Below the pieces are notes generated by a model that saw nothing but the letters and a program-made list of their open reading frames with translations, made no database searches and was not told where the DNA came from. DNA of 56,160 nucleotides from Planctomycetales bacterium (lineage in GTDB: Bacteria; Planctomycetota; JAKEIC01): NCBI GenBank assembly GCA_022614695.1, contig JAKEIC010000295.1:1-56160 (forward strand), given 5' to 3'. Positions within the stretch are counted from its first letter, which is position 1. Each line of letters begins with the position of its first letter. The position numbers were made by a program, and so were the translations under genes. Shown piece by piece: positions 8,874-46,750 of this stretch.

Positions 8874-8879
8874 TATCCT
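8874..8879 (+). promoter_or_regulatory. -10 hexamer TATCCT before the membrane protein gene
   Basis: TATCCT ends 8 bases before the GTG at 8888. No -35 match is seen. Confidence 0.4.
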
Positions 8880-8887
8880 GCGGGGTT

Positions 8888-9514: not shown

Positions 9515-9599
9515 GGCCCGACGGGCAGGCACGGCGGCCCCGCCGCTGGCCCGGACGTCATCGGGGAAGTGCTGCCAGGTCCGGCTCGACGAAGGCGGC

Positions 9600-9965: not shown

Positions 9966-10035
9966 GCTCGCGGGGGATGGGGGCCCCCCCCGTGAGAGGA
10001 ACGACCTCCGGGCGCCGGGAGTTTGTCCTCGCCGC

Positions 10036-10041
10036 TAGAAT
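10036..10041 (+). promoter_or_regulatory. -10 hexamer TAGAAT before the amidohydrolase gene
   Basis: TAGAAT ends 9 bases before ATG 10051, again predicting a near-leaderless transcript. Confidence 0.5.
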
Positions 10042-10050
10042 CTCCCCCCC

Positions 10051-33003: not shown

Positions 33004-33030
33004 TGCCAAGGGGAGCCAGGGGACAAGTGA

Positions 33031-33090
33031 TGGGCGGGGCAGGAGTCGAACCCGCACGGGCGTATCGCCCGCAGGATTTTAAATCCCGCG
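33031..33090 (-). pseudogene. Displaced 3' half of host tRNA-Leu(UAA)
   Basis: Reading the minus strand, the anticodon arm (TTTAAAA loop), a well-paired variable arm, a T-arm with TTCGACT loop and the 3' acceptor strand CCCGCCC followed by discriminator A are all intact. The bases 5' of the anticodon arm do not form an acceptor or D-arm: only 3 of 7 acceptor positions pair. The missing 5' half (GGGCGGG acceptor and D-arm) is found at 46612-46638, and joining the two gives a perfect tRNA-Leu. This is the host 3' half left behind after integration. Confidence 0.85.
33072..33090. repeat. attL: 19-bp core direct repeat in the tRNA-Leu anticodon arm
   Basis: CAGGATTTTAAATCCCGCG, identical to 46595-46613. 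The match starts and stops sharply at both ends, which defines the crossover region to within these 19 bases. Confidence 0.9.
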
Positions 33091-33144
33091 ACACGTCGCC
33101 GAACCCTCCGACCCTGCGAGACTTGGGAGGAGCCTCGCCGCCGT

Positions 33145-33161
33145 GCTACGTCCGGCGCTAC
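33145..33161 (+). repeat. Candidate integrase arm-site (left)
   Basis: GCTACGTCCGGCGCTAC lies 55 bases inside attL. A 15-of-17 match in the same orientation lies inside attR at 46438. The unit holds two GCTAC half-sites. Confidence 0.5.
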
Positions 33162-33182
33162 ACAGAAACCGGGAAACGGGGG

Positions 33183-34358
33183 TCACGCGCCCTCCGCGGC
33201 ACGCCGCTCGGGCTCGCCGGACGGGGCCTCGCCCCATCGCTCCGCGAGCGCGTCCATGACGCAGCGCTCCGTCCCGGCCGGCAGGGCGCGGGAGTACCGG
33301 AGGCTCATGGAGAGCGTCTTGTGCCCGAGCACGGACGCGATGGCAGCGGGGCTCGCCCCCGAGGCGGCCAGGTGCGCCCCGACGTGGTGCCGCAGGTCGT
33401 GGAGCCGGAGCCCATCGAACTTGAGCCGATCCGCCGCGCGCCGGAAGCCGGCCGAGAGCGTGTCCGGCTTGAGCCCCGGGAGCACCGGGTCCTCCCCGCC
33501 GACGCGCGCGGGGCCCCTGGCGGCCGAGAGCCGTCCGAGGATGGCGAGCGCCCCGGGCGTCGCCGGGATCGCGCGGGGGCGGCCGTTCTTGGAGCGCCGG
33601 ACGAGGATCTCCCGGCGGGCGAGCGACACGTCGGCCCAGCGGAGGGCGAGGATCTCCCCGCGGCGCGCGCCGGTCTCGGCGAGGAGCCCCACCGCGGCCG
33701 AGACGGGGCCCTCGGGGATGGCAGCGACGATGCGGGCCAGGTCCTCGCGCGTGAGGAACGGGACGGCCCGGGCGGGCTCGGATGGCCGCTTGACGGCGCG
33801 CGCGGGGTTGTCCCGCATGTACCCGCGCTCAAGCGCGGCCTTGAAGCACGTCGAGAGCGCCGCGGCGTAGCGGTTGAGTGTGGGGACCGACGCGCCCCTG
33901 GCGTCCCGGACGTGGGCGAGGAAGTCGGCCACGTCGCCGGGGCCGACCTCGGACAGCGGCTTCCCGCCGAGGAACTTCGCGGCGACCCGCAGCCGCGGGA
34001 CCTCGCTCGCCACCGTGGCGGGGCCGTGCCGGTTCCCGAGCGTGGGCTCGTACACCTTGAGGAAGTCGGCGAGGCTCACGGGCTCGACTGGCTTCACCCC
34101 GAGGACGCTCTCGGTGGCGATGGCGAGCCGCCGCGACGCGAGGAGGGAGACGGCCAGGGAGCGGGACGCCCCAGCGCACTCCCACCGCTCCCGCCCGGCC
34201 CCGTCCGTGTATCGGACGTACCAGTTCCCCGGGCGGCCGTCCTTCCGCCGCCGGCGGATGATGGAGCCCCACTCCCTGCGCCGGGAGTGCTTCCCAACCT
34301 CCTTGACGCTCGGCGTGGCTACAACGCTGGTGGCCGAGAACCCTGTCACCTGGTCCAT
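33183..34358 (-). CDS. int: Tyrosine recombinase (element integrase)
   Basis: A 391-residue phage-type integrase. An N-terminal arm-binding part (WGSIIRRRRKDGRPGNWYVR) is followed by a SAM-like core-binding domain (VADFLAHVRDARGASVPTLN) and the catalytic domain. Catalytic residues are visible in LLAETGARRGEILALRW (Arg), LRLHDLRHHVGAHLAASG (His-x-x-Arg) and LGHKTLSMSLRYSR (His and the Tyr nucleophile). It should drive integration at the 19-bp tRNA-Leu core. It lies immediately inside attL and points toward it. The HTH gene ends 3 bases upstream, so the two are co-transcribed. Confidence 0.93.
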   Translation of the reverse strand: MDQVTGFSATSVVATPSVKEVGKHSRRREWGSIIRRRRKDGRPGNWYVRYTDGAGRERWECAGASRSLAVSLLASRRLAIATESVLGVKPVEPVSLADFLKVYEPTLGNRHGPATVASEVPRLRVAAKFLGGKPLSEVGPGDVADFLAHVRDARGASVPTLNRYAAALSTCFKAALERGYMRDNPARAVKRPSEPARAVPFLTREDLARIVAAIPEGPVSAAVGLLAETGARRGEILALRWADVSLARREILVRRSKNGRPRAIPATPGALAILGRLSAARGPARVGGEDPVLPGLKPDTLSAGFRRAADRLKFDGLRLHDLRHHVGAHLAASGASPAAIASVLGHKTLSMSLRYSRALPAGTERCVMDALAERWGEAPSGEPERRAAEGA

Positions 34359-34361
34359 GAG

Positions 34362-34625
34362 CTACCCCCTCTCGGCGGGCGGCCAAGCGCCCGCGAGCCA
34401 CAAGTCCACGATGCGGCGGTAGAGCCCCCGGGGTTCCGTGCCCAGCTCCCATTCAGCGAGCGTGACACGGTTCGCCCCAATCTCATCGGCAGCAGCCGCC
34501 TGCGAAAGCCTGCGCCTAGCCCGCTCGCGGATGAGACGGCCCGCGAGTCCGAGCGGACGCCCCCCCGCCCGATCCTTGTGCGGCCGGGCGATCGGGCCTC
34601 CTAGCCTCGGAGCGGTGGGAGACAT
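34362..34625 (-). CDS. XRE/Cro-like HTH regulator
   Basis: An 87-residue protein. After a basic N-terminal stretch comes a five-helix DNA-binding domain: LAGRLIRERARRRLSQAAAA, DEIGANRVTLAEWELGTEPR, GLYRRIVDLWL. The Q-A-A-A-A-D-E-I-G motif fits an XRE-type helix-turn-helix. ATG 34625 is preceded by a strong promoter 7 bases away and lies within an inverted repeat, which suggests autorepression. Being just upstream of the integrase, it may control excision and integration. Confidence 0.75.
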   Translation of the reverse strand: MSPTAPRLGGPIARPHKDRAGGRPLGLAGRLIRERARRRLSQAAAADEIGANRVTLAEWELGTEPRGLYRRIVDLWLAGAWPPAERG

Positions 34626-34642
34626 GTCGTTTATACTACATG
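34623..34642. promoter_or_regulatory. Inverted repeat (operator candidate) over the HTH promoter
   Basis: CATGT (34623-34627), 10 bases, ACATG (34638-34642). It spans the start codon and the -10 box of the HTH gene, the expected place for autorepression. Confidence 0.4.
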
Positions 34643-34661
34643 AGTCACTGAGCCGCGTCAA
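34633..34661 (-). promoter_or_regulatory. Promoter of the HTH-integrase operon
   Basis: TTGACG (34656-34661), a 17-base spacer, TAGTAT (34633-34638), then 7 bases to ATG 34625. No Shine-Dalgarno; a leaderless start is predicted. Confidence 0.65.
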
Positions 34662-34828
34662 GAAGGGGGTATCCCGAAGATGGGCGCAGGAAGCACGAGG
34701 ACCCAGGGAGTCGCCCCAGGGCATGCCCAGGGCGTTCCCCCTTCCTGGTGAGAGGGGGCCGCCGGAGCCATCGGGAATGAGGGGCCAATAGTCGCGGAAC
34801 CTGGACGGGGAATTGGGGAAGTCTCAGC

Positions 34829-34856
34829 TTGACTCTCGGGGCGACCAGTCGAGAAT
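34829..34856 (+). promoter_or_regulatory. Promoter of the 34866 gene
   Basis: TTGACT, a 16-base spacer, GAGAAT, then 9 bases to GTG 34866. It is divergent from the integrase operon. Confidence 0.55.
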
Positions 34857-34865
34857 CGGGGTGTT

Positions 34866-35366
34866 GTGTCGGTCAGCTCTCTCCTGACAAGGGCGCGGGT
34901 TGGCCGCGCACCGATGACCCACCGCCCGCCCCCTACGCCACTCCGGATGCTGGTCGTACCTGGAGGCGGAACCCGGTACACGATTCCGGACGCCCGTGCG
35001 CCAAGTGTTCCGATTCAGCAGGTCCAGGCGACCATCATGAGTGCGCGCATCGCTCTCGCTTCCAAGGCCGAGGGGATGTCTCCCACGGACCTTGCGAAGT
35101 GCGTGATTCAGGTGCTCAAGGCGCCAGCCAGGATCTACGTGGGCAACTCGGGAGGATGGTACTACTTCCTCAACTCCAGGAAGCTGACCGCCCAGGTGCC
35201 GCGGGTCCACCTCGCGAAGGTGCCAAGCTCTGTCTTCTGCGCACGAGTGCGACCCGACGCGGTGCCTCCAGGGCTAGTCGTGAGCGTCTGCTCGTTTGAG
35301 GCAAGCGACCCGATGGACCCCGATTCTCCACTGGATCGGCGGACCCGCCAAACTCTGATACTATAG
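34866..35366 (+). CDS. Hypothetical element protein with aromatic core motif
   Basis: A 166-residue protein of unknown family. The first 55 residues look disordered. The rest is compact: MSPTDLAKCVIQVLKAPARI, YVGNSGGWYYFLNSRKLTA, VHLAKVPSSVFCARVRPDAV. The GGWYYFLN strand and the SVFCARVRP strand resemble small phage nuclease or toxin-like folds, but I cannot assign one. GTG 34866 is supported by the promoter 9 bases upstream; an ATG at 35037 would give a 109-residue protein. The stop is followed after 8 bases by the DUF2283-like gene, so they form an operon. Confidence 0.55.
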   Translation: MSVSSLLTRARVGRAPMTHRPPPTPLRMLVVPGGGTRYTIPDARAPSVPIQQVQATIMSARIALASKAEGMSPTDLAKCVIQVLKAPARIYVGNSGGWYYFLNSRKLTAQVPRVHLAKVPSSVFCARVRPDAVPPGLVVSVCSFEASDPMDPDSPLDRRTRQTLIL

Positions 35367-35374
35367 GGGTGAGC

Positions 35375-35830
35375 ATGCGACTCGAAGATGCCTTCGAGGA
35401 ACTCGAACGCGACGCCAAGGGCGTCGGTGAGCCCCCGTTCGCGTGGTTCAACCCCGATGGGGACACGCTCGAAGTCTACTTCGAGGCCGGGCCGAGGCTC
35501 GCCGAGCGCGTGGACGACCTCATCTCGGTCTTCGTGTCCGCCGAGGATGAGAGCCGGGTCGTAGGGCTCGCCATCAAGAATATCACCAAGCACTTCGGGG
35601 CCAGCGGCATCAAGGGCGCCTTCCTCGCGCCCGGGAAAGCCAAGCTGGCAGCGCTCATTGCGGGTGCGCACTTCGCGCTGGGGTATCGGTTGGAGCGAAC
35701 CATGGGGGCACGGCCCGTTGAGCATCTCACCCGATACCGTGACCTGATCCGCCGAGTCGGCGACCGAGAGATAGACGTCCCGAAGGAGATGTTCGCGGGC
35801 CACGGCGCGCCACAGGGGTCGGCCCAGTAG
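35375..35830 (+). CDS. DUF2283-like protein
   Basis: A 151-residue protein. The N-terminal part has the DUF2283 pattern: FAWFNPDGDTLEVYFEAGPR, RVDDLISVFVSAEDESRVVG, LAIKNITKHFG. The C-terminal half is helical and basic (LTRYRDLIRRVGDREIDVPK). The function of DUF2283 proteins is not established; they are often near toxin-antitoxin genes. The ATG has AGGGG about 5 bases upstream; a GTG at 35369 is an alternative. It is in an operon with the preceding gene. Confidence 0.6.
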   Translation: MRLEDAFEELERDAKGVGEPPFAWFNPDGDTLEVYFEAGPRLAERVDDLISVFVSAEDESRVVGLAIKNITKHFGASGIKGAFLAPGKAKLAALIAGAHFALGYRLERTMGARPVEHLTRYRDLIRRVGDREIDVPKEMFAGHGAPQGSAQ

Positions 35831-35883
35831 GCCCCCTGCGCGCTGATCGGCGGCCACTGAACGTCGCGCCGGGTGTCTCTCGC

Positions 35884-36014
35884 GTGGCCCGCCCTTCCGG
35901 GCCGGCAGGGAGCATTGATCTGGACGCGCCGACGTAGTAGTCTCACGTCGCGGCCGGAAGGCCGCATCACCGGGGCCGAAGCCCCGGCAGCACGCATCCG
36001 GGCCCGACGGCCCG
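35884..36014 (+). other. Array of four GC stem-loops ending at a ribosome binding site
   Basis: Four perfect hairpins in 131 bases: GGCCCG/CGGGCC (35884-35901), GCGGCC-GGAA-GGCCGC (35950-35965), CCGGGGC-CGAA-GCCCCGG (35970-35987) and CGGGCC-CGAC-GGCCCG (35999-36014). The last one ends at the GAGGAGG that serves GTG 36027. They could act as an RNA leader controlling the 36027 gene, or as transcription pause or stop signals. This accounts for the gene-free stretch 35831-36026. Confidence 0.6.
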
Positions 36015-36026
36015 AGGAGGTTGGCC

Positions 36027-36662
36027 GTGAAGCCGAACCGCAAGCGATCCTGGTACGGGACGAGGGGCAACCTGCCCCTGCCGGTGCCCGGGGGCCAGAA
36101 CACCTCAGCGCCAGGCGCGCGAAGTCTGGTGGGCGTCGGCACTCCTCCCACAGCCACGCCGCCTGAGCCGGCGACGCTCTTGGAGACCCTCCCCGCGGAG
36201 TTGGCCGCGGAGCGGACAAGCGTGCTCGCCGCTCGTCAGGACGAAGTTTCGCATCTCGTCGCCCAACTCGACTTGCACGCCCGGCGGCTCGGCGAGCGCT
36301 TCGGTGTGCACGGCGAGCCGCTCCCGCTTGAGCGGCGGCCCGAGTCGCCGAACCTGGGGCTCGAAGTCCTTCGCGCGATGCTCGTCGCGGAGAAGACGTT
36401 TCGCCTCACGCGGCACAGCGAGCGATGGGGGATCTTCTACCTGGAGGGTCTGACGATCCTGAGTGCTGCGCGCCAGCCCGACGGGGGCGGAGTCGTGCGT
36501 CCGCTGCCGGAGTGCTCCATCGAGGTGAAACGGCGCTTCCTCCAGGTCTCCCGTGACTTCTTCGCTGCGTACCTGGGGCGCGTCCGGGAGACGGTCGCCG
36601 GGATCGAGACCGACCTCGGCCTGGGGATGGGGGTGCTAGAGGCGCTTCAGCGACTGGCCTAG
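36027..36662 (+). CDS. Hypothetical element protein
   Basis: A 211-residue protein with no recognised domain. A disordered Pro-rich N-terminus (residues 1-45) is followed by helices: TLLETLPAELAAERTSVLAA, RQDEVSHLVAQLDLHARRLG, GLEVLRAMLVAEKTFRLTRH, VKRRFLQVSRDFFAAYLGRV. The GTG start is set by GAGGAGG 6 bases upstream; a TTG at 36021 overlaps that site. It could be a DNA-binding or structural helper of the element. Confidence 0.5.
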   Translation: MKPNRKRSWYGTRGNLPLPVPGGQNTSAPGARSLVGVGTPPTATPPEPATLLETLPAELAAERTSVLAARQDEVSHLVAQLDLHARRLGERFGVHGEPLPLERRPESPNLGLEVLRAMLVAEKTFRLTRHSERWGIFYLEGLTILSAARQPDGGGVVRPLPECSIEVKRRFLQVSRDFFAAYLGRVRETVAGIETDLGLGMGVLEALQRLA

Positions 36663-36739
36663 AGGTGCGCACCCAGGGATGGGCGTCGTCCGGCCGGTCG
36701 GCAAGTCTCGTGAAGGGCCATGGGCCCAGAGGAGTCCAC

Positions 36740-36988
36740 GTGTGGTACTGCAAGAGTTGTAGGTGCTACGTCCACGACAACGAGGCGGTCACTTCCAACG
36801 ACGCGAAGGCGCTCTGCGGACTTGGCGGAGCGGGCCTCGGAGCAAGGGGCGGCGTCTGGGGCGCTCTCGCGGGTGCCCTGCTCGGCGCGCTCGCCGGTGC
36901 CGTGATTGACGCCTACGTGCGCCCCAAGTGCCCTGTCTGTGCGACGGTGCTCCGCGCGGTCGCCGACGACTTGCTCGGGGCGGGATAG
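36740..36988 (+). CDS. Small zinc-binding protein with glycine-rich membrane segment
   Basis: An 82-residue protein. Two CxxC pairs (WYCKSCRCYVH near the start and PKCPVCATVL near the end) probably bind one zinc. Between them is a Gly/Ala-rich hydrophobic run with GxxxG spacing (ARGGVWGALAGALLGALAGA), like a glycine-zipper membrane hairpin. GAGGAG lies 6 bases before GTG 36740. The layout suggests a zinc ribbon split by an inserted transmembrane hairpin. Function unknown. Confidence 0.5.
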   Translation: MWYCKSCRCYVHDNEAVTSNDAKALCGLGGAGLGARGGVWGALAGALLGALAGAVIDAYVRPKCPVCATVLRAVADDLLGAG

Positions 36989-37063
36989 CCGGACCACACT
37001 CCTGTCGCGGAGGCTCCGCCCACGGCGCCATCCTTGGGGCGGAGGGGGCGTGTCTCTCGCCCA

Positions 37064-37636
37064 TCACACCCACCGGGACATCGCCTCGTGCACGACCATG
37101 CACTCCAGTTCCAACAGGTCCTCCACCCGGGCCGTGAGCTGCGCCCGTCTCTTCCGGTAGCGTGCCTTCGCGAGTCGGCTCTCGATCCGCGCCTGAGCCG
37201 AGCGGATGCTGGCCAACTCCGCGCCGAGGTCACGGTGCCGTCGGCGGCAGCGGTACGTGAGGCGGGAGCACGCCCGACAGGCGAAGTAGCGCCCCGAGAA
37301 GTAGATCAACCCGCAGCGCCGGCCGCAGCCCTGTGCGGGGCAGCGGAACCACGGCCTCGCCCCCCCATACCCGCACGCGGTCCACTCGATCGTCACGGCG
37401 TAGGAGACCTCCTCCTGGTCCACGACGTAGGCGAACCCGAGCGTCTGGCAACCTCGGCCGGAGCCCCGTACGGGCCGCGTACCGATGCGCGCCAGGACTT
37501 CCTTTTCTCGCTTCCACTCCCAGACTTGATCGCCGACGAGCCCGCCGCCTCGGTACACGCCGAGGATGTCCAGCCGGTAGGACTCGCCGACGAGCCCCGT
37601 CCACCGCCGCGGGGGGCCGCTCCCCCAACCGCCCAT
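37064..37636 (-). CDS. Conserved mobile-element protein with two CxxC zinc sites
   Basis: A 190-residue protein that starts MGGWGSGPPRRWTGLVGESY, the typical opening of a family common in prophages and integrative elements. Further on is the characteristic WFRCPAQGCGRRCGLIYFSG and FACRACSRLTYRCRRRHRD, two CxxC-type knuckles forming a zinc ribbon, then a basic helical tail. Function is unknown; a nucleic-acid-binding role is likely. GGAGGA lies just upstream, and the ATG overlaps the preceding stop (TGATG). Confidence 0.7.
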   Translation of the reverse strand: MGGWGSGPPRRWTGLVGESYRLDILGVYRGGGLVGDQVWEWKREKEVLARIGTRPVRGSGRGCQTLGFAYVVDQEEVSYAVTIEWTACGYGGARPWFRCPAQGCGRRCGLIYFSGRYFACRACSRLTYRCRRRHRDLGAELASIRSAQARIESRLAKARYRKRRAQLTARVEDLLELECMVVHEAMSRWV

Positions 37637-37902
37637 CACTCCTCCAGGCTGGCCAGCAACTGCTCGGTCCTGGTGGGCGGCCGGGGCGGGACCCCGCCTA
37701 CCTGTCGGAGCGCGAGGTCCTGATCCACGGCCGTCGCGGGGACAATCCCCGCGCGGCTCAGGACGGCCTCGCACGCTCGAAGTCGGACTCGCTCATCCTT
37801 CGCGTCGAGGAGGCCCACGAGCGCGGAGGCGGCCTTCCCGATGGCGGCTCGCAGCGCCGCCCTCGCCTCGCTCAGTTCCTTCGCCTGGTCTTCTCGGTTC
37901 AT
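37636..37902 (-). CDS. Small helical element protein
   Basis: An 88-residue protein, entirely helical in appearance: MNREDQAKELSEARAALRAA, SALVGLLDAKDERVRLRACE, AVLSRAGIVPATAVDQDLAL. The middle resembles one or two HEAT-like hairpins of the kind seen in some phage small proteins. GGGAGGG lies 4 bases before the ATG. It is translationally coupled to the zinc protein downstream. Family and function are not recognised. Confidence 0.5.
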   Translation of the reverse strand: MNREDQAKELSEARAALRAAIGKAASALVGLLDAKDERVRLRACEAVLSRAGIVPATAVDQDLALRQVGGVPPRPPTRTEQLLASLEE

Positions 37903-37922
37903 GCGCCCTCCCTGTTTTCGGC

Positions 37923-37950
37923 CGCTCGGATTTCCGTAATCATCCGAGCG
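37923..37950. repeat. 9-bp perfect inverted repeat between element genes
   Basis: CGCTCGGAT, 10 bases, ATCCGAGCG, in the 66-base spacer between the excisionase-like gene and the 88-residue protein gene. It could be a terminator-like hairpin or an operator; there is no long T-run. Confidence 0.6.
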
Positions 37951-37968
37951 AGCACTCCTCCCTAGCTC

Positions 37969-38334
37969 TCACCGCCTCCGCTTCGGCTGACGCCCCAACC
38001 CGGGGACCACGCCGCACGCGCGCCGCTGGGGCTCCTCGGGCATCTCCCGGGCGATCCAATCGAGCAGGACTACCCGGGTCACGAGCCACGCCCGCCCGAG
38101 TCGTCGGCAGCCTGGGACCTCCTGCCGGCGCGCGAGCCGTCGGAACTCGGCAAGCGTTGTCCCGAGTGCCTGCGCGGCCTCCTCGGCCGTCCACGTGAGC
38201 CGCCCCGGGAGCCCCTGAGCCGCGGCAGGAGCCTCGGGGGCGGGCGAGCGGGCCTCGGCGCGGGGCGTGGAACCTTGGGCGGGGGCCTCGGGGCCTGTGG
38301 GGGCGGGGAGCGGATCGGGCTCGCCCGGGTGCAT
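37969..38334 (-). CDS. Excisionase/MerR-like HTH protein
   Basis: A 121-residue protein. After a Pro/Ala-rich N-terminus comes a small winged-helix DNA-binding domain: LTWTAEEAAQALGTTLAEFR, RLARRQEVPGCRRLGRAWLV, TRVVLLDWIAREM. This is the helix-turn-helix pattern of excisionases and 'HTH_17' proteins. GGAGG, located inside the end of the primase gene, serves its ATG, and the two genes are 1 base apart. It may control directionality of recombination or transcription of the replication module. Confidence 0.65.
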   Translation of the reverse strand: MHPGEPDPLPAPTGPEAPAQGSTPRAEARSPAPEAPAAAQGLPGRLTWTAEEAAQALGTTLAEFRRLARRQEVPGCRRLGRAWLVTRVVLLDWIAREMPEEPQRRACGVVPGLGRQPKRRR

Positions 38335-38335
38335 C

Positions 38336-40528
38336 TCAACCCTCCTGCCCGGGCTCGCGATCCGGAGGCGTCGGAGGGGGGGAGGGGGTGTCTATCCCCC
38401 CGCGCAACGGTGCAACCGTGCAACGGTCCTCGCCGAGGAGGGCCTCGGGTGACGGGAGGAGAGGCTCGTCCTCGGGGAGCGGGTCGCCGAGGACGTACCG
38501 GGCTGGCCGGCCCTTTCGTTCCTCCTCGTTCCGGAGGAACCCCCGGTCCTCGGCGCGCGATGCCCGGCGGGAGGCGGCGGACTTGTCGAGGTGGAGGGCT
38601 GCCGCGAGCTTGGCGACGGAGACAGGGCCGGGCCCAAGCGCGCAGACCTTCTCGACGGCCTCCCGCACCTCCGGCGAGACGGTGCGCTCGGCGGCGTCGG
38701 CCAGGAGGGCTGCGACCAGCTCGCGGACAGCGGCGTAGTCCGCTAGAGTCGCCACGACTCGTCCGGCGGGGTCTCTCTCCCGCGTCGCGCGGTGCAAGAG
38801 GGCGTGAGCCTCGACGAGACGGAGAACCGCCCCGAAGTCGCGGCGCAGCCTGACGGCGACGGGCGGGATCAGCTTCGCGAGCGCCTCCGCGTAGGGGACG
38901 ACGACCTTGGCGTGCTCCGCGGCCTGCCACTCCTGCAACGCGATCCACGGGGCCGGGTCGGGACTGTCGGCCGCGCCCTTGGCGCAAGCGAGGAGCACGG
39001 CTTTCGTTTGCTCCTGCGTGTCGGTGACAGGCACCGAGAGGAGCCTCGTCTCGTTCTCCGGATGGAGCCTGACGGCCGTCGTGGTCACGAGGAGCCCGGT
39101 CGGACCCTCCCGCTCGATCAGGCGGGGACGCAGCCCGTCCTTGGTCTTCTCGACTGTCTCGTACCGGAGCCTTCCCTCGGAGAGCAAGGAGCGGACGAGG
39201 TAGCTCGCAAACTCGGACTTCAAGCCGACGGCCTCGTACACGACGAGCATCCGGTGCGAGAGCGGCTCCTCGGAGTAGGCGAGCGCCCGCTCGGACATGG
39301 CAGAGAGCGCGTAGTAGGCCGACAATGGGAAGAACACGAGGACGCGCTCGACGACGAAGGACTTCCCAGCGGACGACGGTCCCTTCACGACGACGGAGAC
39401 GGGACGCGCGAGGAGCCGGCTCGTCACCGACAGGTAGAGGAGCTTCGCGGCCCGAGACTCGCCGACGACGCCAGCCTGCTCGACGGCCGTAGCGAACTTG
39501 TCGAGGATGTCCCGCTCCCGCGCGAGGTCCCCGCATCGCCCCAGGGCTATCGCAGCTCGGCCGCGGGCCTCCGACGACTCCTCCTCGGTCCACGGCCGGG
39601 CCGCCGCGAGAGCGGCCTCCCACCGCTCGCGGAATCGAGCGGGGTCGGAGAGGTAGAGCGCGCTCGGGTCCTTCGTCGCCGCCGGGAGTCGGACGAGCCG
39701 AACCCGGTCCCGGATCTTCGAGCGAGCCACCCAGGCGAGGACCGCCTCGCCGCCCGTGTCGGGCTCGACGAGGACGTAGATCGTCGCGATTCCGTCGAGA
39801 AGGGGCGCCCACTCCTCGCGCCAGGTCGTCGCCCCGGGGAGTCCGAGCGCTGGGAAACCGTGGAGCCAAAGGGTCTGCGAGTCGGACTCGCCCTCGACGA
39901 GCGTGACGGCTCCGGCCTTCCGGACGTCGTCGAGCCGCCAGAGCCCGTACAGGATCGGCTTCGAGCCCTTCCGCCACCGGAACTTGTCCTTCGCGTCGAG
40001 CGCGATCCGGAACCGGACCGCGGCCTCGCCTCCGTCCTGGGATCGGTAGGGGATGCGAACGGCCGGGCGGCCGCGCAGGGACAGGTCCGAGAGCCCGATC
40101 TCCCGCAAGAAGTCGAGCGGAAGGCGCTTCGCCTCACCATAGGCGCCGAGAGTGCAGCCGGGGTGTTGCGCCGTTGCGCCGTTGATCGGGGGGATAGAGG
40201 ACCCCCCCTCCCCCTCGGCGTGGGGCTTCCCGTTGGAACCTGAGCCTCCGAGATAGGTCTCCTCGATCCACCGTGCGGCATCGGCACGGCGCCCGAGGGC
40301 GCGGACGCGACACGTCACGTCGAGGAGGCCGAGGGAGAGCCCGCAGGCGAAGCACTTCACTCCGCCCCGTTGGGCGTTGACCTGCATCGAGGGGTGAGCA
40401 TCGCCGTTCTTGTGCTTCCCCGCGTCCAGACACCGGACCTTGCCCTCGGGGTTCGGCTCGCCGAGGAGGTCGCGTAGGACGCGAGCCCGCCCATCAGGAC
40501 CCAGCCGCTCGATGATGGTCGGACTCAC
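38336..40528 (-). CDS. Primase-helicase of the element (CHC2-like zinc, Toprim, P-loop ATPase)
   Basis: A 730-residue replication protein. A zinc-binding region (C33, H39/H45, CFACG with C59 and C62) is followed by a Toprim core (VTLVEGESDSQTLWLHGFPA with Glu212, and VLVEPDTGGEAVLAW with the Asp). An ATPase domain has Walker A GPSSAGKS at 383-390 and a following acidic strand (MLVVYEAVG). The C-terminus has a winged-helix pattern (VSVAKLAAALHLDKSAASRR). It probably primes and unwinds element DNA. The GTG start overlaps the stop of the preceding HTH gene. Confidence 0.85.
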   Translation of the reverse strand: MSPTIIERLGPDGRARVLRDLLGEPNPEGKVRCLDAGKHKNGDAHPSMQVNAQRGGVKCFACGLSLGLLDVTCRVRALGRRADAARWIEETYLGGSGSNGKPHAEGEGGSSIPPINGATAQHPGCTLGAYGEAKRLPLDFLREIGLSDLSLRGRPAVRIPYRSQDGGEAAVRFRIALDAKDKFRWRKGSKPILYGLWRLDDVRKAGAVTLVEGESDSQTLWLHGFPALGLPGATTWREEWAPLLDGIATIYVLVEPDTGGEAVLAWVARSKIRDRVRLVRLPAATKDPSALYLSDPARFRERWEAALAAARPWTEEESSEARGRAAIALGRCGDLARERDILDKFATAVEQAGVVGESRAAKLLYLSVTSRLLARPVSVVVKGPSSAGKSFVVERVLVFFPLSAYYALSAMSERALAYSEEPLSHRMLVVYEAVGLKSEFASYLVRSLLSEGRLRYETVEKTKDGLRPRLIEREGPTGLLVTTTAVRLHPENETRLLSVPVTDTQEQTKAVLLACAKGAADSPDPAPWIALQEWQAAEHAKVVVPYAEALAKLIPPVAVRLRRDFGAVLRLVEAHALLHRATRERDPAGRVVATLADYAAVRELVAALLADAAERTVSPEVREAVEKVCALGPGPVSVAKLAAALHLDKSAASRRASRAEDRGFLRNEEERKGRPARYVLGDPLPEDEPLLPSPEALLGEDRCTVAPLRGGIDTPSPPPTPPDREPGQEG

Positions 40529-40839
40529 GAGCTCCCCCCGAGGCGGCCATCCTCTGCCCGGTGCGAGCACTCGGCGCAGTACCACGGCCCCCGCGGCCCG
40601 TCGTAGCCCGCCGCCTCCGACGGCCGGATCCGCTGCCCACAACGGCCGGCGCACGGTCTTGGCCGGTCGGGGTCGCCGGGCGGTTCAAGGGCAAGGACAA
40701 GATCCTCTTCTGCGACTAGCAACCGTCGGCCAACCCTGACGCCGGCAAGTCTGCGGGTGTGGATCCACCGCGCAACCGTTCGTGCGGAAATCCGCAACCG
40801 ACGCCCGCACTCCTCTGTCGTCAAGTACGCTGGAGCCAT
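40525..40839 (-). CDS. Excisionase-like HTH protein with C-terminal zinc ribbon
   Basis: A 104-residue protein. The N-terminal half is a clear excisionase/AlpA-type domain: YLTTEECGRRLRISARTVAR, WIHTRRLAGVRVGRRLLVAE. The C-terminal half has Cys pairs (CAGRCGQRIRP and WYCAECSHR) for a zinc ribbon. It is the first gene of the operon with the primase-helicase, and its upstream region contains two 17-bp direct repeats that it may bind. It could be a replication initiator accessory or a transcription regulator. Confidence 0.7.
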   Translation of the reverse strand: MAPAYLTTEECGRRLRISARTVARWIHTRRLAGVRVGRRLLVAEEDLVLALEPPGDPDRPRPCAGRCGQRIRPSEAAGYDGPRGPWYCAECSHRAEDGRLGGSS

Positions 40840-40890
40840 CGCCCGTGAGAGTCGCGGACGAGCGCGCGCTCACGCGAGTTTCGCGGGGAG

Positions 40891-40927
40891 ATGCGGGAGG
40901 TTACGGGCGAATGCGGGAGGTTACGGG
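40891..40927. repeat. Two 17-bp direct repeats (iteron-like) upstream of the replication operon
   Basis: ATGCGGGAGGTTACGGG occurs at 40891-40907 and 40911-40927, a 20-base period or about two helical turns. The repeats lie 52 bases upstream of the excisionase-like/primase operon. A -10-like TAGGAT on the minus strand is at 40928-40933. Confidence 0.8.
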
Positions 40928-40930
40928 ATC

Positions 40931-42460
40931 CTATCGAGCAGGCTGCGTGGGCCGGGAGGGTGGAGCCCCCCCCAGAGCTTCCCAGCGCGCGCTACCTTCC
41001 TGGGCGGGCGTCTGCTTCGGCCGCTCCGCCTCGCGGACTCGCTTGAAGTCGTCTATGACCCACTCCACGCGAGCGGCGCAGAGGAACGGCTGGCCCTTCT
41101 TGCTGTGCTCACGCACGCATGCCGCTACCGGCTCGAAGGGATCGTCGGCGGGAGGGGACTTCGAGAGACGCCGGAGCTTCTCCTCAAGTTTCCGAGCACC
41201 CATGAAGTCGGGGCCAAGGACGGAGTTCAGGCGGTCGGCCGCCTCCCGATTCGACAGACGTGGGCCACCGTGTTCCGGGATCGTCTGTCCCGGTTGCGGA
41301 GTAGGTAACTCTGAGACTGCCAGCGGCTCACCTGCGGCAGGTGAAAAGGTCACGGCCACCTTCTCCCCACCCGCGCCCGCGGTGTCTGAGATGACGACCT
41401 CGAATGTCCAGGTTCCATCCGTATTCCTCGTCCCGTCTCCGGTTACCCAAGCACTCTGGCCATGCGTGCCGGTGAGGCCCGGGACGGGCTGGACTGCGTA
41501 GGAGCGAAGGGTGCAAACCTTCACCGATTGCGAGCCTTCGGGCACGGTGACCAAGCGCGAGTCCGAGAGGGGAGGGATCGTCCCGTCGTGTGGGTCTCCC
41601 GCGGGCCTTCCGGAAGTCCGGTCGTCTCTCGGCGCGGAGACGGCCTTGGCCCCGGCCTGGACGAAGAGGACCGAGACCCGGACTCCACCGGCGGGAGCGA
41701 AGTCGGAGATCCTGAGCGTCATGCTCCACGTCCCGTCACCGTTGCGCACCGGGTCGTCGTAGCTGACACCGTAGATGCCGCCGTGTGACCCGCCTGATGC
41801 CGTCGCCATCACCGTGGGGGGATCGGGGTAGATCCCGCCCGAGGTCACGGTTACGGAGCGCGAGCCGGCGGGAACCGTCACTACTTGCGCATCGGACTCC
41901 GCGACCCGAGGGGGCGGGCCGAGCAACTCACGGATCTCGGGAGGTATCTTCGCCTCGCGTCTCCCTGCCTCGCCCGGGGCCGGCCCTGTTCGAGGACCAC
42001 CAGGACCCGTGGCGCCAGCAGCCGACGCGACTACCACGCCCAGCGCCGCGCTGATCGCCTCGGCCAATTCCCGGAGGTGTGTGATTCGCTCTCCCGCCCT
42101 TCTGGCCTGCTCCTCATGCTTGCGGTGTGCCCCCGCGCCCTCCTGGCGAGCGCGCTGCTCGGCTGTCGCCTTCTCAATCTCGTACTCCCTGAGCCAGTAC
42201 CGAACGCGCCCAAGTTCACGGGCCACCTCAGTTCGCTCAGTCGGGGACAGCACCTCCTCGCGGCGGTCTTCAAGCTCTCGCAGACGGCGGACTATCGCCT
42301 TGGTGCTCGGCGCCTGGGTAGCTGGGCCCGGACTGCTGTACCCATCCGGGACCAGGATCGCGTCCAGGTCCGCTTCGCGCTGCGCGTCCTCCAGAGCCTT
42401 CGCACGATGCGCGTCGAGTGCCGGTTGACCGTCGCTCGGAAGCTCGGTAGGGTCGGGCAT
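40931..42460 (-). CDS. Two-repeat beta-domain protein of the element
   Basis: A 509-residue protein of unknown family. Residues 1-150 are charged helices, partly coiled coil (AIVRRLRELEDRREEVLSPT, EKATAEQRARQEGAGAHRKH), with one weakly hydrophobic stretch (AISAALGVVVASAAGATG). Two homologous beta domains follow: VVTVPAGSRSVTVTSGGIYP ... NGDGTWSMTLRISDFAPAGG and LVTVPEGSQSVKVCTLRSYA ... NTDGTWTFEVVISDTAGAGG, each with a GTW-type strand. The C-terminus is helical. Neither an enzyme nor a phage structural protein is recognisable. ATG 42460 has GAGGG upstream and a leader hairpin just before it. Confidence 0.55.
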   Translation of the reverse strand: MPDPTELPSDGQPALDAHRAKALEDAQREADLDAILVPDGYSSPGPATQAPSTKAIVRRLRELEDRREEVLSPTERTEVARELGRVRYWLREYEIEKATAEQRARQEGAGAHRKHEEQARRAGERITHLRELAEAISAALGVVVASAAGATGPGGPRTGPAPGEAGRREAKIPPEIRELLGPPPRVAESDAQVVTVPAGSRSVTVTSGGIYPDPPTVMATASGGSHGGIYGVSYDDPVRNGDGTWSMTLRISDFAPAGGVRVSVLFVQAGAKAVSAPRDDRTSGRPAGDPHDGTIPPLSDSRLVTVPEGSQSVKVCTLRSYAVQPVPGLTGTHGQSAWVTGDGTRNTDGTWTFEVVISDTAGAGGEKVAVTFSPAAGEPLAVSELPTPQPGQTIPEHGGPRLSNREAADRLNSVLGPDFMGARKLEEKLRRLSKSPPADDPFEPVAACVREHSKKGQPFLCAARVEWVIDDFKRVREAERPKQTPAQEGSARWEALGGAPPSRPTQPAR

Positions 42461-42472
42461 GTCGTTTCCCTC

Positions 42473-42511
42473 GCGCCCGCGGGATAACCTCGCCAAAGGT
42501 CCCGCGGGCGC
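42473..42511. repeat. 11-bp perfect inverted repeat in the divergent control region
   Basis: GCGCCCGCGGG, 17 bases, CCCGCGGGCGC. On the minus strand the hairpin ends right before the ribosome binding site of the 42460 gene. On the plus strand it is followed by CTTTCTTTT and could act as a terminator. Confidence 0.7.
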
Positions 42512-42591
42512 CTTTCTTTTCCACATCCCAGGGACTCAGGTCAAGGGAAACAACTCGGATCGCCACGCGCCTGGAGGGGCCGGAGGCAACC

Positions 42592-42628
42592 CCCCCGTCC
42601 CCCCCACGCCAATCGTGGTGGACGGGGG
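42592..42628. repeat. Strong two-part hairpin in the divergent control region
   Basis: CCCCCGTCC pairs with GGACGGGGG (9 bp), and inside it CCACG pairs with CGTGG around a 5-base loop. It belongs to a 503-base gene-free stretch (42461-42963) that also holds the inverted repeat at 42473 and the large structure at 42824. I see no coding region in that stretch. Confidence 0.65.
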
Positions 42629-42823
42629 CGTGCGTGCGCCGGGCTGGGGCACGTCGTCGGCCTGAGCCGAGAGCTGCGCGTGCCTGGGCGCCAGGATGCG
42701 GAAGGGCGGAGGGCGAGTCAAGGGAATCCGGTCCATCACCCCTCGGTAAGACCCGCTGGGCCAAGCAGGGCTCGGGAGTAGCTGGCTCCGGTTGTAGGCG
42801 GCGGGGGTCCGGGGTAACGTAGC

Positions 42824-42957
42824 CCTCGGCCTGGGAGGGCTTGGTACCGGGGAGGAGCTTCGCTCCACCCGGCCAACGGTTCGGAGCGTCCGCGCTGACG
42901 CTGGGCTTCGGCCCGGCGTCGGCGGTTGCGGGCGCTCCGAGCCCTCCCAGGCCGGGG
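42824..42957 (+). ncRNA. Candidate structured RNA: three-way junction upstream of the methyltransferase gene
   Basis: Pairing read directly from sequence: P1, an 18-bp closing stem (42824-42841 with 42940-42957, one G-T pair). P2, TTGG/CCAA plus CCGGG/CCCGG with a GGAG/CTCC hairpin (42841-42876). P3-P4, an 11-bp stem (42882-42892 with 42929-42939) running into a 14-bp stem (42893-42906 with 42911-42924) capped by a C(TTCG)G tetraloop, with a 4-base GTTG bulge. Almost every base is paired. The structure ends 6 bases before ATG 42964 and takes up the only purine-rich ribosome-binding candidate. It may be a cis-regulatory leader, a separate RNA, or a DNA-level origin structure. Confidence 0.6.
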
Positions 42958-42963
42958 TTTCCA

Positions 42964-44703
42964 ATGCCGTCGGCGTCGGGCTCTTATCCGAGACGCGCAG
43001 CGCGGAGCCGGCTGCGCAGGCGGTCCGTTTCCGCGTCTGCCGCGAGCCGACCGGCCGAGGCGGAGAACGTCCTCTACTACGGCGACAACCTAGACATCAT
43101 CCGCCGTTATGTGAAGGACGAGACGGTGGACCTCGTGTACCTCGATCCGCCCTTCAACTCGAACCAGGACTACAACGTCCTCTTCGCCGAGCAACCTGGG
43201 AAGCGGTCGGCCGCTCAGATCCGCGCCTTCGAGGACACCTGGACCTGGGATGTAGGGGCTGAGGCGGCGTACGTCGAGGTCGTCGAGGGTGGGGGAAAGG
43301 TGGCGGACGCCCTCCGAGCGTTCCGCACCTTCCTCGGCGAGAGCGACATGATGGCGTACCTCGCGATGATGGCTCCTCGGCTCGTTGAGTTGCGCCATGT
43401 TCTCAAGCCGACGGGCTCGATCTACCTCCACTGCGACCCGACGGCCAGCCACTACCTCAAGATGCTCTTGGACGGCATCTTCGATCCCCGCCGATTCAGG
43501 AGCGAGATCGTCTGGAAGCGAAGCAGCGCGCACAGCGACACGAAGCAGGGGCGCCGTCAGCACGGGAGGATCCATGACATCCTGTTCTTCTACACGAGGG
43601 GTGATTCCTGGGGGTGGACTCCCGTGTACACGCCCTACGACCCGGAGTACGTGGAGCAGTTCTACCGCCACGTCGAGGAGGGGACCGGAAGGCGGTACCG
43701 GCTCGGGGACCTCACGGGGCCAGGGGGGGCTGCGAAGGGAAACCCGCGGTACGAGGTCATGGGCGTCACTCGCTACTGGAGGTACACCGAGCAGAAGATG
43801 CGCGAGTTGATTCGCCTGGGGCGGGTCGTGCAGACCCGGCCGGGCACAGTCCCTCAATACAAGCGATACCTCGACGAGATGCCCGGCGTCCCCTTGCAGG
43901 ACGTGTGGACCGACTTGAAGCCGATCGGAGCGCAAGCCGCGGAGCGCCTGGGCTACCCCACCCAGAAGCCCGAGTCGCTCCTGGAGAGGATCGTTCGGGC
44001 GGGTAGCGAGGAAGGCGCCACCGTGCTCGATCCCTTCTGTGGCTGCGGGACAGCCATCGCGGTCGCGCAGCGCCTCGGCCGCCGCTGGGTTGGGGTAGAC
44101 ATCACCCACCTTGCCGTCGGGCTCATCAAGCACCGACTCCAGGACGCGCATGGGCTCGTAGCGGGGAAGGACTACCAGGTGGTCGGCGAGCCCGCGGATC
44201 TCGCTGGCGCGGCGAGGCTCGCCGGGGAGGATCCGTACCAGTTTCAGTGTTGGTCCCTCGGGCTCGTCGGCGCAAGGTCGGCAGACATAAAGAAGGGAGC
44301 GGACCGGGGAGTGGACGGCCGACTCTACTTCCACGACGAGAAAGGCAGCGCCAAGACGAAGGAGATCGTCTTCTCGGTGAAGGGGGGGCACACGGGGGCC
44401 GGGGACGTGAGGGACCTTCGCGGGGTCGTCGAGAGAGAAGGGGCCGCGATCGGAGTCCTCATCTCGCTCCAGGAGCCGACGGCACCGATGCGCGCAGAGG
44501 CCGCGAAGGCCGGATTCTACGAGTCGCCGACGTACCGGAAGAAGTACCCGAGGCTGCAACCTCTCTCGATCGCGAACCTCCTCGACGGAAGGAGGATCGA
44601 GTATCCCCCGTCCCGATACGTGGACGTGCCGATGCACAAGCCGGCGCCGCGAGCGACCATGGCGGAGACACGCCCGCTCCCGTTCGGGAAGGAGGAGGAG
44701 TGA
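42964..44703 (+). CDS. Site-specific DNA methyltransferase fused to Mrr-like nuclease domain
   Basis: A 579-residue fusion. The beta-type amino-methyltransferase part has ENVLYYGDNLDIIRRYV, the catalytic DPPF (61-64) in LVYLDPPFNSNQDYNVLF, a target-recognition middle and the AdoMet-binding ATVLDPFCGCGTAIAVAQRL. The last 150 residues match the Mrr/PD-(D/E)XK type: KGADRGVDGRLYFHDE, IVFSVKGGHTGAGDVRDLRG, GAAIGVLISLQEPTAPMRAE. A single protein may thus modify and cut DNA. ATG 42964 is the only canonical start after the hairpin and gives about 33 extra basic residues before the family's usual start. Confidence 0.88.
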   Translation: MPSASGSYPRRAARSRLRRRSVSASAASRPAEAENVLYYGDNLDIIRRYVKDETVDLVYLDPPFNSNQDYNVLFAEQPGKRSAAQIRAFEDTWTWDVGAEAAYVEVVEGGGKVADALRAFRTFLGESDMMAYLAMMAPRLVELRHVLKPTGSIYLHCDPTASHYLKMLLDGIFDPRRFRSEIVWKRSSAHSDTKQGRRQHGRIHDILFFYTRGDSWGWTPVYTPYDPEYVEQFYRHVEEGTGRRYRLGDLTGPGGAAKGNPRYEVMGVTRYWRYTEQKMRELIRLGRVVQTRPGTVPQYKRYLDEMPGVPLQDVWTDLKPIGAQAAERLGYPTQKPESLLERIVRAGSEEGATVLDPFCGCGTAIAVAQRLGRRWVGVDITHLAVGLIKHRLQDAHGLVAGKDYQVVGEPADLAGAARLAGEDPYQFQCWSLGLVGARSADIKKGADRGVDGRLYFHDEKGSAKTKEIVFSVKGGHTGAGDVRDLRGVVEREGAAIGVLISLQEPTAPMRAEAAKAGFYESPTYRKKYPRLQPLSIANLLDGRRIEYPPSRYVDVPMHKPAPRATMAETRPLPFGKEEE

Positions 44704-44795
44704 GCCGCGAAGGGAAGACGTCCGATGTGTAGCGTGGAGGGCCGCCTCTCCGACACGGCCCATGAGATTCTCCCGAAAGGTGCCTAGCTGGCGCT

Positions 44796-45003
44796 CCCCC
44801 TATGCTAGAACACGCTCCGCCCGCGCGGAAGCGCGGGACGAGACAATGCTAGACCTGAGTCGCACGCCGGGCTCCGTGGGCGGCCGAAAGGCCGGGCGGG
44901 GCGGCCATGTCATCTCCTCCGGGCCCCCGCGTCTAGCGGGACAACCCGGCTCGGCCGTTCCCGTTCTTCCGACCCGCGTCCCGGCGGGCGGCTCTTTTAC
45001 TCG
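44796..45003 (+). other. Highly structured non-coding stretch between methyltransferase and LRAT genes
   Basis: The gene-free stretch 44704-45117 contains a cluster of perfect hairpins: CCCGCGC-GGAA-GCGCGGG (44820-44837), CGGCC-GAAA-GGCCG (44881-44894), and CCCGC-GTCTA-GCGGG (44926-44940) nested in CCGGG/CCCGG (44919-44949). A further GC stem precedes CTCTTTT near 44990. ATGCTAGA is repeated at 44802 and 44846, flanking the first hairpin. It may be a small RNA gene of about 200 bases ending in a weak terminator. The open frame across it has no coding character. Confidence 0.4.
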
Positions 45004-45117
45004 TTCCACCGAGTCGGCCCTCCGGGCCCTGATCCGCCAGTAGCGGGCGCGGAGAAGACAGGAGCCGCCGCAGACGTCTGGCTGAGGAACCCGCCTTCCT
45101 GTACCCTCAGGCGAGCC

Positions 45118-45678
45118 ATGACGGCCGGTCCGGAGTCGCCCACCTCCTCAAGCACCAAGGACCCGCTGCCCGAGACCGCGGTGGTCGCCCCCGGGGACAT
45201 GATCGCCGTGCCGGCATGGGTTCCAGGCGTGGAGCATGTCGGCACCTACGTTCCCGACGGGCCCGAAGGGGAGAACGTGGTGCACAACACGAAGCACGGC
45301 CCGAGGCGCGTAATATGGGAGACCTGGGAGCGGTTCTCTGGAGGGGGCCCCGTGCGCATCGTCCGGGCCGCCCCACCGCAGGAGCGCCCGGCGATCATGG
45401 CACGCGCCCTTACCCAAGTCGGCCAGCCCTACCGGCTGTTCCGCAACAACTGCGAGCACACGGCCTGGTACGCCCAGACCGGTGTTCGCCAGAGCCCCCA
45501 ACTCCAGCGCGCCGGGCAAGCGGTCGCCGCGTTCGCTCTGGCCGTCGTGGAGTCGCTCGCGAGAGGTGTCGCCGAGGCAGCGAAGCCGCACCCCTGCTTC
45601 GCAGTGACCGGGAGAGGGCTGCCGTGCAAGCGCATCGCCGGGCCCTTCGAGTCGCACTGCTGGCAGCACCGCCGGTAG
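45118..45678 (+). CDS. LRAT-domain protein (NlpC/P60-superfamily acyltransferase-like)
   Basis: A 186-residue protein. The LRAT fold is visible: APGDMIAVPAWVPGVEHVGT with the conserved His, VVHNTKHGPRRVIWETWERF, and RLFRNNCEHTAWYAQTG, whose NCEH motif provides the nucleophilic Cys. LRAT-like enzymes move acyl groups or cleave lipid or peptide bonds; in mobile elements they may act on the envelope. A hydrophobic helix (GQAVAAFALAVVESLARGVA) could attach to membrane, and the C-terminal Cys/His (CFAVTGRGLPCKRIAGP, HCWQH) may bind metal. No Shine-Dalgarno is obvious. Confidence 0.7.
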   Translation: MTAGPESPTSSSTKDPLPETAVVAPGDMIAVPAWVPGVEHVGTYVPDGPEGENVVHNTKHGPRRVIWETWERFSGGGPVRIVRAAPPQERPAIMARALTQVGQPYRLFRNNCEHTAWYAQTGVRQSPQLQRAGQAVAAFALAVVESLARGVAEAAKPHPCFAVTGRGLPCKRIAGPFESHCWQHRR

Positions 45679-45869
45679 CGGTCGAGGATCGCTGCGATCG
45701 AGTACGGGAGGCGCGCGCGCGAATGCGTGGAGCGTGTCTCGCGCCGACAGACCTGACGGGTCCGAGCACCAGCGTCCCACCGCGAGCCGTCCCAGTCTCT
45801 CCGTTCTACCGTCGCGCGAGGAGCTTCCGTCGCCCCTTAGCCACGGCCTGCGATGAAGAGAGGCCACCT

Positions 45870-45900
45870 GGGGCTCCCCTTGAGGAATGCAAGGAGCCCC
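45870..45900. repeat. Hairpin in the 279-base spacer before the HTH gene near attR
   Basis: GGGGCT pairs with AGCCCC and CCTT with AAGG, with a 2-base bulge. It is followed by less GC-rich DNA (45905-45950) that probably holds the promoter of the 45958 gene. Nothing else is recognisable in 45679-45957. Confidence 0.5.
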
Positions 45901-45957
45901 CTGGAAACTACGGGAAATCCATCGTTTTCAGCCATGATCCTGATAAGCTTCTTGCAC

Positions 45958-46344
45958 ATGCCACGCGCCACCGAGAGCGTCGCGCGCCCTCGCCGGGAGC
46001 GGGCCTTCCCCCTGTTCCTCGCGGGCCGCACCGATGCCGAGGTCGCGGCCGACGTCGGGGTGAACCCTGCGACCGCCTGGCGGTGGCGGAAGCGCCCTGA
46101 GGTCCAGAGCGAACTACATAGACGCTGGCTGGACGCGGCAGAGTTCGCCGTGCTGGGCGACCCCTCCGGGCGCTTCCGCTTCCCGCGGACGCCGCTCAGG
46201 TACGCGCGCAGGTTGCTGGCGCTGGCCGTGGACACACTCTCCGGGACGAGAGATCCGTGGCGGCGGCAGTCCGCGAGACTCGCCGCGATGGATCTCGTGG
46301 GCTGGGGCCTCATCCGAGAGAGAGTGAGCGCGCATAGACAGTAG
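45958..46344 (+). CDS. HTH protein near attR (homeodomain-like, terminase-small-like)
   Basis: A 128-residue protein. Residues 10-55 form a homeodomain-like helix-turn-helix: RRERAFPLFLAGRTDAEVAA, DVGVNPATAWRWRKRPEVQS. This pattern is shared by phage small-terminase and transposase N-terminal domains. The rest is helical (RFPRTPLRYARRLLALAVDT). It could recognise element DNA ends. ATG 45958 was chosen because the HTH begins soon after it; upstream in-frame ATGs exist at 45853 and 45934. A -10-like GATAAG lies 11 bases before it. Confidence 0.55.
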   Translation: MPRATESVARPRRERAFPLFLAGRTDAEVAADVGVNPATAWRWRKRPEVQSELHRRWLDAAEFAVLGDPSGRFRFPRTPLRYARRLLALAVDTLSGTRDPWRRQSARLAAMDLVGWGLIRERVSAHRQ

Positions 46345-46437
46345 GGGATTTCGAGCCGCGGGCGGGTGTTGCCCGATCGAGGCTCGCCGGATCGCGCCTG
46401 ACTCGCCACCGGAGCGTGGTAGGGGGGCGCTGCCCGC

Positions 46438-46454
46438 GCTACGTCCGTTGCTAC
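46438..46454 (+). repeat. Candidate integrase arm-site (right)
   Basis: GCTACGTCCGTTGCTAC, 15 of 17 identical to 33145-33161 and in the same orientation, 141 bases inside attR. The last 208 bases of the element (46345-46552) hold no other recognisable feature. Confidence 0.5.
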
Positions 46455-46552
46455 GTTCGCGTGTAGCTACAAGCGATCCTGTCGGATTCCGTTCGCTCCC
46501 GTGCGCGCGCGTCCTCCGCGCCGCAACACTCGGCCTCGCAATCGGTTCGCTG

Positions 46553-46638
46553 CGGGCGGGAGGGGATTCGAACCCCCACGACCCCTGCGGGCCACAGGAT
46601 TTTAAATCCCGCGCGTCTGCCGGTTCCGCCACCCGCCC
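46553..46638 (-). tRNA. tRNA-Leu(UAA), reconstituted by the element
   Basis: On the minus strand: acceptor GGGCGGG with CCCGCCC, D-arm GCG/CGC, anticodon arm CGGGA-TTTAAAA-TCCTG with anticodon TAA, a long variable arm and T-arm GGGGG-TTCGAAT-CCCCT. All stems pair. The 5' half up to the anticodon arm is host-derived; the 3' half comes from the element. The discriminator base is G, whereas the displaced host 3' half has the A expected for tRNA-Leu. CCA is not encoded. Confidence 0.93.
46595..46613. repeat. attR: 19-bp core direct repeat
   Basis: CAGGATTTTAAATCCCGCG, identical to attL at 33072-33090, within the anticodon arm of the tRNA-Leu gene. Confidence 0.9.
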
Positions 46639-46657: not shown

Positions 46658-46750
46658 CTACTTCCGGTTCTGGAATCGGAGCCTCTTCCGGAGCTTCCGG
46701 TGCTTGTGCTTGTTCATCTTCTTCCGGCGCTTCTTGATCAGGCTTCCCAT
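46658..46750 (-). CDS. bS22-like / AURKAIP1-COX24-domain small ribosomal protein (30 aa)
   Basis: A 30-codon gene. The product reads MGSLIKKRRKKMNKHKHRKL and ends RFQNRK; about half of its residues are Lys or Arg. This matches the short bacterial ribosomal proteins of the bS22 type, related to mitochondrial mS38 (AURKAIP1/COX24 domain). They start MGS-hydrophobic-IKKRRKK and sit at the base of the small-subunit platform. AAAGGAGGT, a perfect anti-16S match, ends 3 bases before the ATG. The gene lies between tRNA-Leu and tRNA-Gly. Confidence 0.8.
   Translation of the reverse strand: MGSLIKKRRKKMNKHKHRKLRKRLRFQNRK

Follow-up and report, generated by a model that had tools for sequence, protein, structure and literature searches.

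A mobile island of ∼13.5 kb (positions 33072–46613) lies inside the tRNA-Leu(UAA) gene of a Planctomycetota host, inserted at the anticodon arm. The stretch of DNA analysed (56,160 nucleotides; the window) corresponds to an entire contig of a metagenome-type assembly of 4.99 Mb that is 88% complete and comprises 369 contigs. We consider it probable that this is a tyrosine-integrase element that rebuilds a chimeric tRNA and has a satellite-like life, and that the G73 of the rebuilt tRNA lowers leucyl-tRNA(UAA), an effect tolerated by the host. The element as such is well supported and belongs to a known type of island; its unusual part is the defect or alteration in the rebuilt tRNA. Islands that enter tRNA genes are regarded as harmless, since the tRNA is restored. 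The present case points to a failure of restoration at the one base defining leucine identity, which a host very rich in G+C may tolerate, the codon being nearly unused. The alteration of tRNA identity by mobile DNA becomes testable, as does the codon usage permitting it.

The borders are given by a perfect 19-bp direct repeat, as the initial annotation had claimed; exact copies of CGCGGGATTTAAAATCCTG are present on the minus strand at 33072–33090 and 46595–46613, with no third copy in the window. From the base composition of the window, chance copies of this AT-centred 19-mer are estimated at ∼1e-8, although a 19-bp repeat of any sequence is estimated not to be rare by chance in 56 kb at 74% G+C. 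The repeat is decisive because it occupies the same register in two tRNA-Leu halves. When the outer flanks are joined they form, as proposed, a tRNA-Leu(UAA) with every stem paired (one G.U pair each in the anticodon and T stems) and discriminator A73. The tRNA gene had also been described as split, and the insertion is indeed in the anticodon arm, but the label is wrong because integration rebuilds a tRNA: the gene is not left in pieces, and a whole tRNA-Leu(UAA) stands at the right end (Rfam tRNA, 53.5 bits). This copy is chimeric. Its 5′ half comes from the host and its 3′ half from the element; the latter brings its own variable arm (stem GGCCC/GGGTC), a normal T arm, the acceptor strand CCCGCCC, complementary to GGGCGGG of the host, and G73. 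The displaced native 3′ half, with A73, stays at the left end beside the integrase gene. A complete tRNA and a fragment in the same orientation thus stand at opposite ends with a tyrosine integrase gene between them, and judged from the sequence the insertion is an ordinary anticodon-loop integration by a tyrosine integrase. Here the integrase acted on attB, located within the anticodon arm of the only tRNA-Leu(UAA) detected in the host, and on an attP carrying the substitute 3′ half; the product of such an exchange is what is seen at the two ends.

A tRNA scan of the window found no tRNA carried by the element beyond the rebuilt cloverleaf. ARAGORN also called a left-end tRNA at 33029–33111, and again in the joined attP; we reject it as a weak pseudo-cloverleaf that uses the left arm and is absent from the Rfam results. 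No donor of the substitute 3′ half was found in the phylum, since the best match (86% over 57 nt) ends before the discriminator.

Features of the element and its ends, in order of position in the window.
Feature	Position	Strand	Basis
attL, displaced native tRNA-Leu(UAA) 3′ half; A73 at 33031; holds core 33072–33090	33031..33090	-	
Putative integrase arm site, left arm (GCTACGTCC, GCTAC); sibling arms hold similar repeats	33145..33165	+	Sequence inspection
Tyrosine integrase, 391 aa	33183..34358	-	Phage_integrase 5e-20; PHROG 1 4e-56
HTH regulator adjoining integrase; homologs (41–51%) beside sibling integrases	34362..34724	-	
ORF of unknown function, 166 aa, weak call	34866..35366	+	
ORF of unknown function, 153 aa	35369..35830	+	
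ORF of unknown function, 213 aa	36021..36662	+	
Small protein, paired CxxC motifs around glycine-rich stretch	36665..36988	+	Sequence inspection
Cysteine-rich orphan, 189 aa	37064..37633	-	
Small-terminase-like protein, 88 aa	37636..37902	-	PHROG 2538, E 1e-4
Excisionase-like HTH_17 protein	37969..38334	-	Pfam
Primase-helicase, C-terminal winged HTH; likely start near 40528	38336..40654	-	Pfam, PHROGs
Conserved iteron block, 3′ copy	38369..38424	-	
Conserved iteron block, 5′ copy, inverted relative to 3′ copy	40165..40220	+	
Excisionase-like HTH_17 protein with zinc-binding tail	40525..40839	-	Pfam
Orphan, 509 aa, coiled coil and predicted beta-sandwich repeats; one TTA codon (41306–41308)	40931..42460	-	
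Structured non-coding RNA candidate	42770..43000	+	Folding, covariation
N6/N4 DNA methyltransferase fused to Mrr-like nuclease domain	42964..44703	+	Pfam
LRAT-like protein; homolog (37%) in sibling on C234	45118..45678	+	Pfam
HTH_23 protein, weakly TerS-like; homolog at right end of tRNA-Asp element	45853..46344	+	
Putative integrase arm sites, right arm (GCTACGTCC ... GCTACG ... GCTAC)	46438..46470	+	Sequence inspection
attR, rebuilt chimeric tRNA-Leu(UAA), host 5′ half and element 3′ half; G73 at 46553	46553..46638	-	
att core, right end, 19 bp	46595..46613	-	

Related elements occupy other tRNA genes of the same genome. Integrases 33–46% related to that of the element adjoin tRNA halves that start in the anticodon arm, one a tRNA-Asp(GTC) half on contig C294, with the rebuilt tRNA on C22, and another a CAT tRNA (tRNA-Met) half on C234, with the rebuilt tRNA on C316. 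The siblings share the HTH gene adjoining the integrase. The element and C22 have the HTH_23 gene and terminal sequence in common at their right ends, and the right end of the element is 77% identical over 100 nt to that of a sibling. A tRNA-SeC locus with another of these related integrases (C237; L041 3027–3124 and 11567–11606) differs in carrying a 40-bp duplicate of the 5′ half rather than of the 3′ half. Beyond this genome, ten further tRNA-inserted elements were found around genes of the same primase family in several phyla, each with its tRNA rebuilt and a 3′ fragment present in the same anticodon-loop arrangement (L048 Asn, L049 Met, L171 Arg, L175 Pro, L185 Arg, L189 Lys, L199 Ile, L200 Ala, L203 Arg and L218 Ala). 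An apparent tRNA-Lys in L048 proved spurious.

In a metagenome-type assembly of so many contigs, two tRNA-Leu genes might have been joined artificially, but we regard an assembly chimera as highly unlikely here: each junction coincides exactly with an integrase-type crossover, an integrase gene and arm repeats are present, the siblings have an identical architecture, and the flanking gene order on the 5′ side agrees with that of G001, a genome of the same order and another family. In G001 the arrangement is tRNA-Gly(UCC), a small COX24-like ORF and an uninterrupted tRNA-Leu(UAA) with A73. The search among relatives for an empty tRNA-Leu site thus yielded an intact gene with a matching 5′ flank, whereas the 3′ flank of G001 is not syntenic and cannot be aligned, so that this synteny is supporting rather than decisive; tblastx against G001 returned high-G+C noise alone. 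The relatives searched yielded no same-species empty site. The siblings, the G001 gene order and the right-end likeness to a sibling are three independent lines of support for the integrative element and borders first proposed. The ORF between tRNA-Gly(UCC) and tRNA-Leu(UAA), conserved in G001, lies at 46658–46750 and is a Lys/Arg-rich reading frame of 30 codons.

The discriminator sets the element apart from its relatives. It is unchanged in all 12 of the other integrations compared (the ten primase-linked elements and the Asp and Met siblings) and changed only in the window element. In the phylum sample, A73 is found in 52 of 52 distinct tRNA-Leu genes, seven of which were placed in register by eye (5′ T pairing with A73), and also in the host tRNA-Leu(UAG), (CAA) and (CAG); host tRNA-Ser has G73. 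In E. coli, leucine identity depends crucially on A73, and G73 serves tRNA-Ser as an antideterminant for LeuRS (PMC9976931); by analogy, poor leucylation is predicted for the rebuilt tRNA. The C2-G71 pair of E. coli tRNA-Leu is an antideterminant for SerRS (PMC9976931). The chimera has G2-C71 instead, like most tRNA-Leu(UAA) of the phylum, and may therefore be open to SerRS, although its Leu-type variable-arm spacing argues against such recognition. A more far-reaching reading is that the integrated element acts as a genetic switch on the code, with the sole tRNA-Leu(UAA) uncharged or charged with serine, so that the few UUA genes are silenced or recoded until excision restores A73. The acceptor of the chimera (G1-C72, G2-C71, G73) does resemble that of host tRNA-Ser, but we think such a switch improbable.

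The host probably tolerates a weakened tRNA-Leu(UAA), because UUA codons are nearly absent. TTA accounts for 7 of 169,895 codons (0.04 per 1,000) in 421 predicted genes from 676 kb of host sequence, the genes having been called by codon-position G+C and not with a trained gene finder. Some of the seven are at doubtful starts; those in argG and mutS look genuine, and complete loss of the tRNA would thus be costly. The change to G73 could instead be harmless drift in a neutral island, either because the chimera is still charged with leucine or because another tRNA-Leu(UAA) lies in the unassembled 12%. The chimera is otherwise well formed, a few TTA codons are kept in real host genes, and the incomplete assembly lacks about six expected anticodons, all of which agree with drift. 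However, no second tRNA-Leu(UAA) was found in the 88%-complete assembly, in which every tRNA apart from the CAT tRNAs is single copy, and drift fits poorly with the universal A73 of the phylum and the host and with its retention in the other integrations. We therefore hold harmless drift to be possible but somewhat doubtful, and favour a G73 that would lower leucyl-tRNA(UAA) in the integrated state.

The gene content bears on how the element may live. Pfam and PHROGs matches uphold the identities first assigned to the cargo, including the primase-helicase, the methyltransferase-nuclease fusion and the LRAT-like protein. The accompanying statement that it matches no phage, ICE or satellite is too strong, since the primase family extends over many phyla, the fusion is a common phage protein (present in 56 viral contigs, at up to 71% identity), and the size and layout are satellite-like. 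The integrase had no relatives in viral contigs in a single-protein scan, and searches of Pfam, PHROGs, phage records and viral contigs gave no match to the cysteine-rich orphan. Predicted structures of the orphan proteins are of low confidence. Directly 5′ of the ORF at 36021, a series of GC hairpins of the form GGCCGGAAGGCC occupies 35880–36020.

This cargo is best read as that of a candidate phage satellite. The gene set of a PICI (integrase, regulator, excisionase-like HTH and primase) is present and phage structural genes are absent: no large terminase, portal, capsid or tail gene of a temperate prophage was found among the element proteins scanned against Pfam and PHROGs, nor did any of 10 element proteins scanned have a Pfam match to a relaxase or to type IV secretion. 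The element would then excise with an HTH_17 excisionase, replicate by its own primase-helicase from paired iteron blocks, and travel in the particles of a helper phage. The competing view, of a decayed prophage or a non-phage integrative element, draws on the fact that no helper phage or particle is known and that the two TerS-like matches are weak (E of 1e-4 and 2e-3, with a predicted fold of low confidence). Furthermore, the primase relatives in L049, L218 and L219 accompany terminase large-subunit genes, and L049 also has a likely capsid gene, which makes the loss of capsid genes conceivable. Against this, the element is compact with clean att ends, and similar elements of ∼6.5–11 kb from tRNA to fragment occur across phyla, most of them without a detected terminase of the L049 type. 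We give decay or a non-phage origin some credence, albeit short of finding either probable, and retain the phage satellite as the working interpretation.

The primase-helicase is 53% identical to that of L049 (IMGVR_UViG_3300006845_000403), a viral contig of 15.6 kb that encodes the primase, an HNH protein, a terminase (TerL) and a likely capsid protein. In positions 1–11248 of this contig, tRNA-Met and its 3′ half are at the flanks, and it may be a capsid-forming satellite. Relatives of the primase-helicase were found at 55 genome loci in many phyla, often near integrases and tRNAs. Comparison of 60 primase loci revealed a conserved, inward-facing block at either end of the primase core, with the consensus GGGGGGAGGGGG-TCTATCCCC(T/C)CCGA-CTGCAACCGTGCAAC. 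It consists of a G-run, TATCCCC and 8-bp iterons (TGCAACNN), and at least one block is present in about half of the 60 loci, in many phyla. The 8-bp-spaced repeat occurs upstream of the primase 22 times in the expected orientation versus 4 in the opposite one, and downstream 30 times versus 9, with 4 occurrences in the rest of the sequence outside the primase gene. These paired inverted blocks are likely a replication origin, and we hypothesize that the winged HTH of the primase binds them as an origin with two sites. A triple-iteron pattern gave 37 matches in viral contigs, none linked to this primase, and was discarded; a composite iteron pattern gave zero matches. No direct match to an iteron-linked P4 origin was found in the literature. 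The primase family and the paired blocks point to small tRNA-inserted elements that share a replication module across phyla.

Several known systems offer parallels. Islander catalogues 2,083 anticodon-centred islands, and the element resembles its anticodon-loop islands in having a tyrosine integrase, a rebuilt tRNA and a displaced 3′ fragment in the same orientation; it differs in the change from A73 to G73 and in that the rebuilt and displaced halves are identical over 19 bp only (PMC4383910). In its size, terminal integrase, regulator, excisionase-like HTH, primase, TerS-like gene and lack of structural genes it is like PICIs and related satellites, but its host belongs to the Planctomycetota and its replication gene is of another family (PMC6092414, PMC10803314). 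Phages with tRNA-dependent lysogeny share only ∼8–10 bp, do not rebuild the tRNA and carry a spare of their own; the element likewise integrates in a tRNA gene and probably leaves a tRNA that is not fully functional, but has a 19-bp core, a rebuilt cloverleaf and no spare tRNA (PMC10865867). A parallel for its target is bldA of Streptomyces, also the sole tRNA for a rare UUA codon in a high-G+C genome and not needed for growth. Whereas bldA is a developmental regulator, here a mobile element has replaced the 3′ half, and any regulation is hypothetical (PMC2000904).

Structured non-coding DNA had also been noted among the cargo, and this is supported at 42770–43000, where the sequence folds far more stably than shuffled sequences (z = −6.25). 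The segment matches no Rfam family, and an RNA model search recovered no further copies among 59 genomes beyond two in the host genome. The second copy, on C150 (L042 3985–4225), is 73% identical and has a similar fold (z = −5.1) with compensatory changes. One copy lies 5′ of the methyltransferase gene and the other 5′ of a lipoprotein gene.
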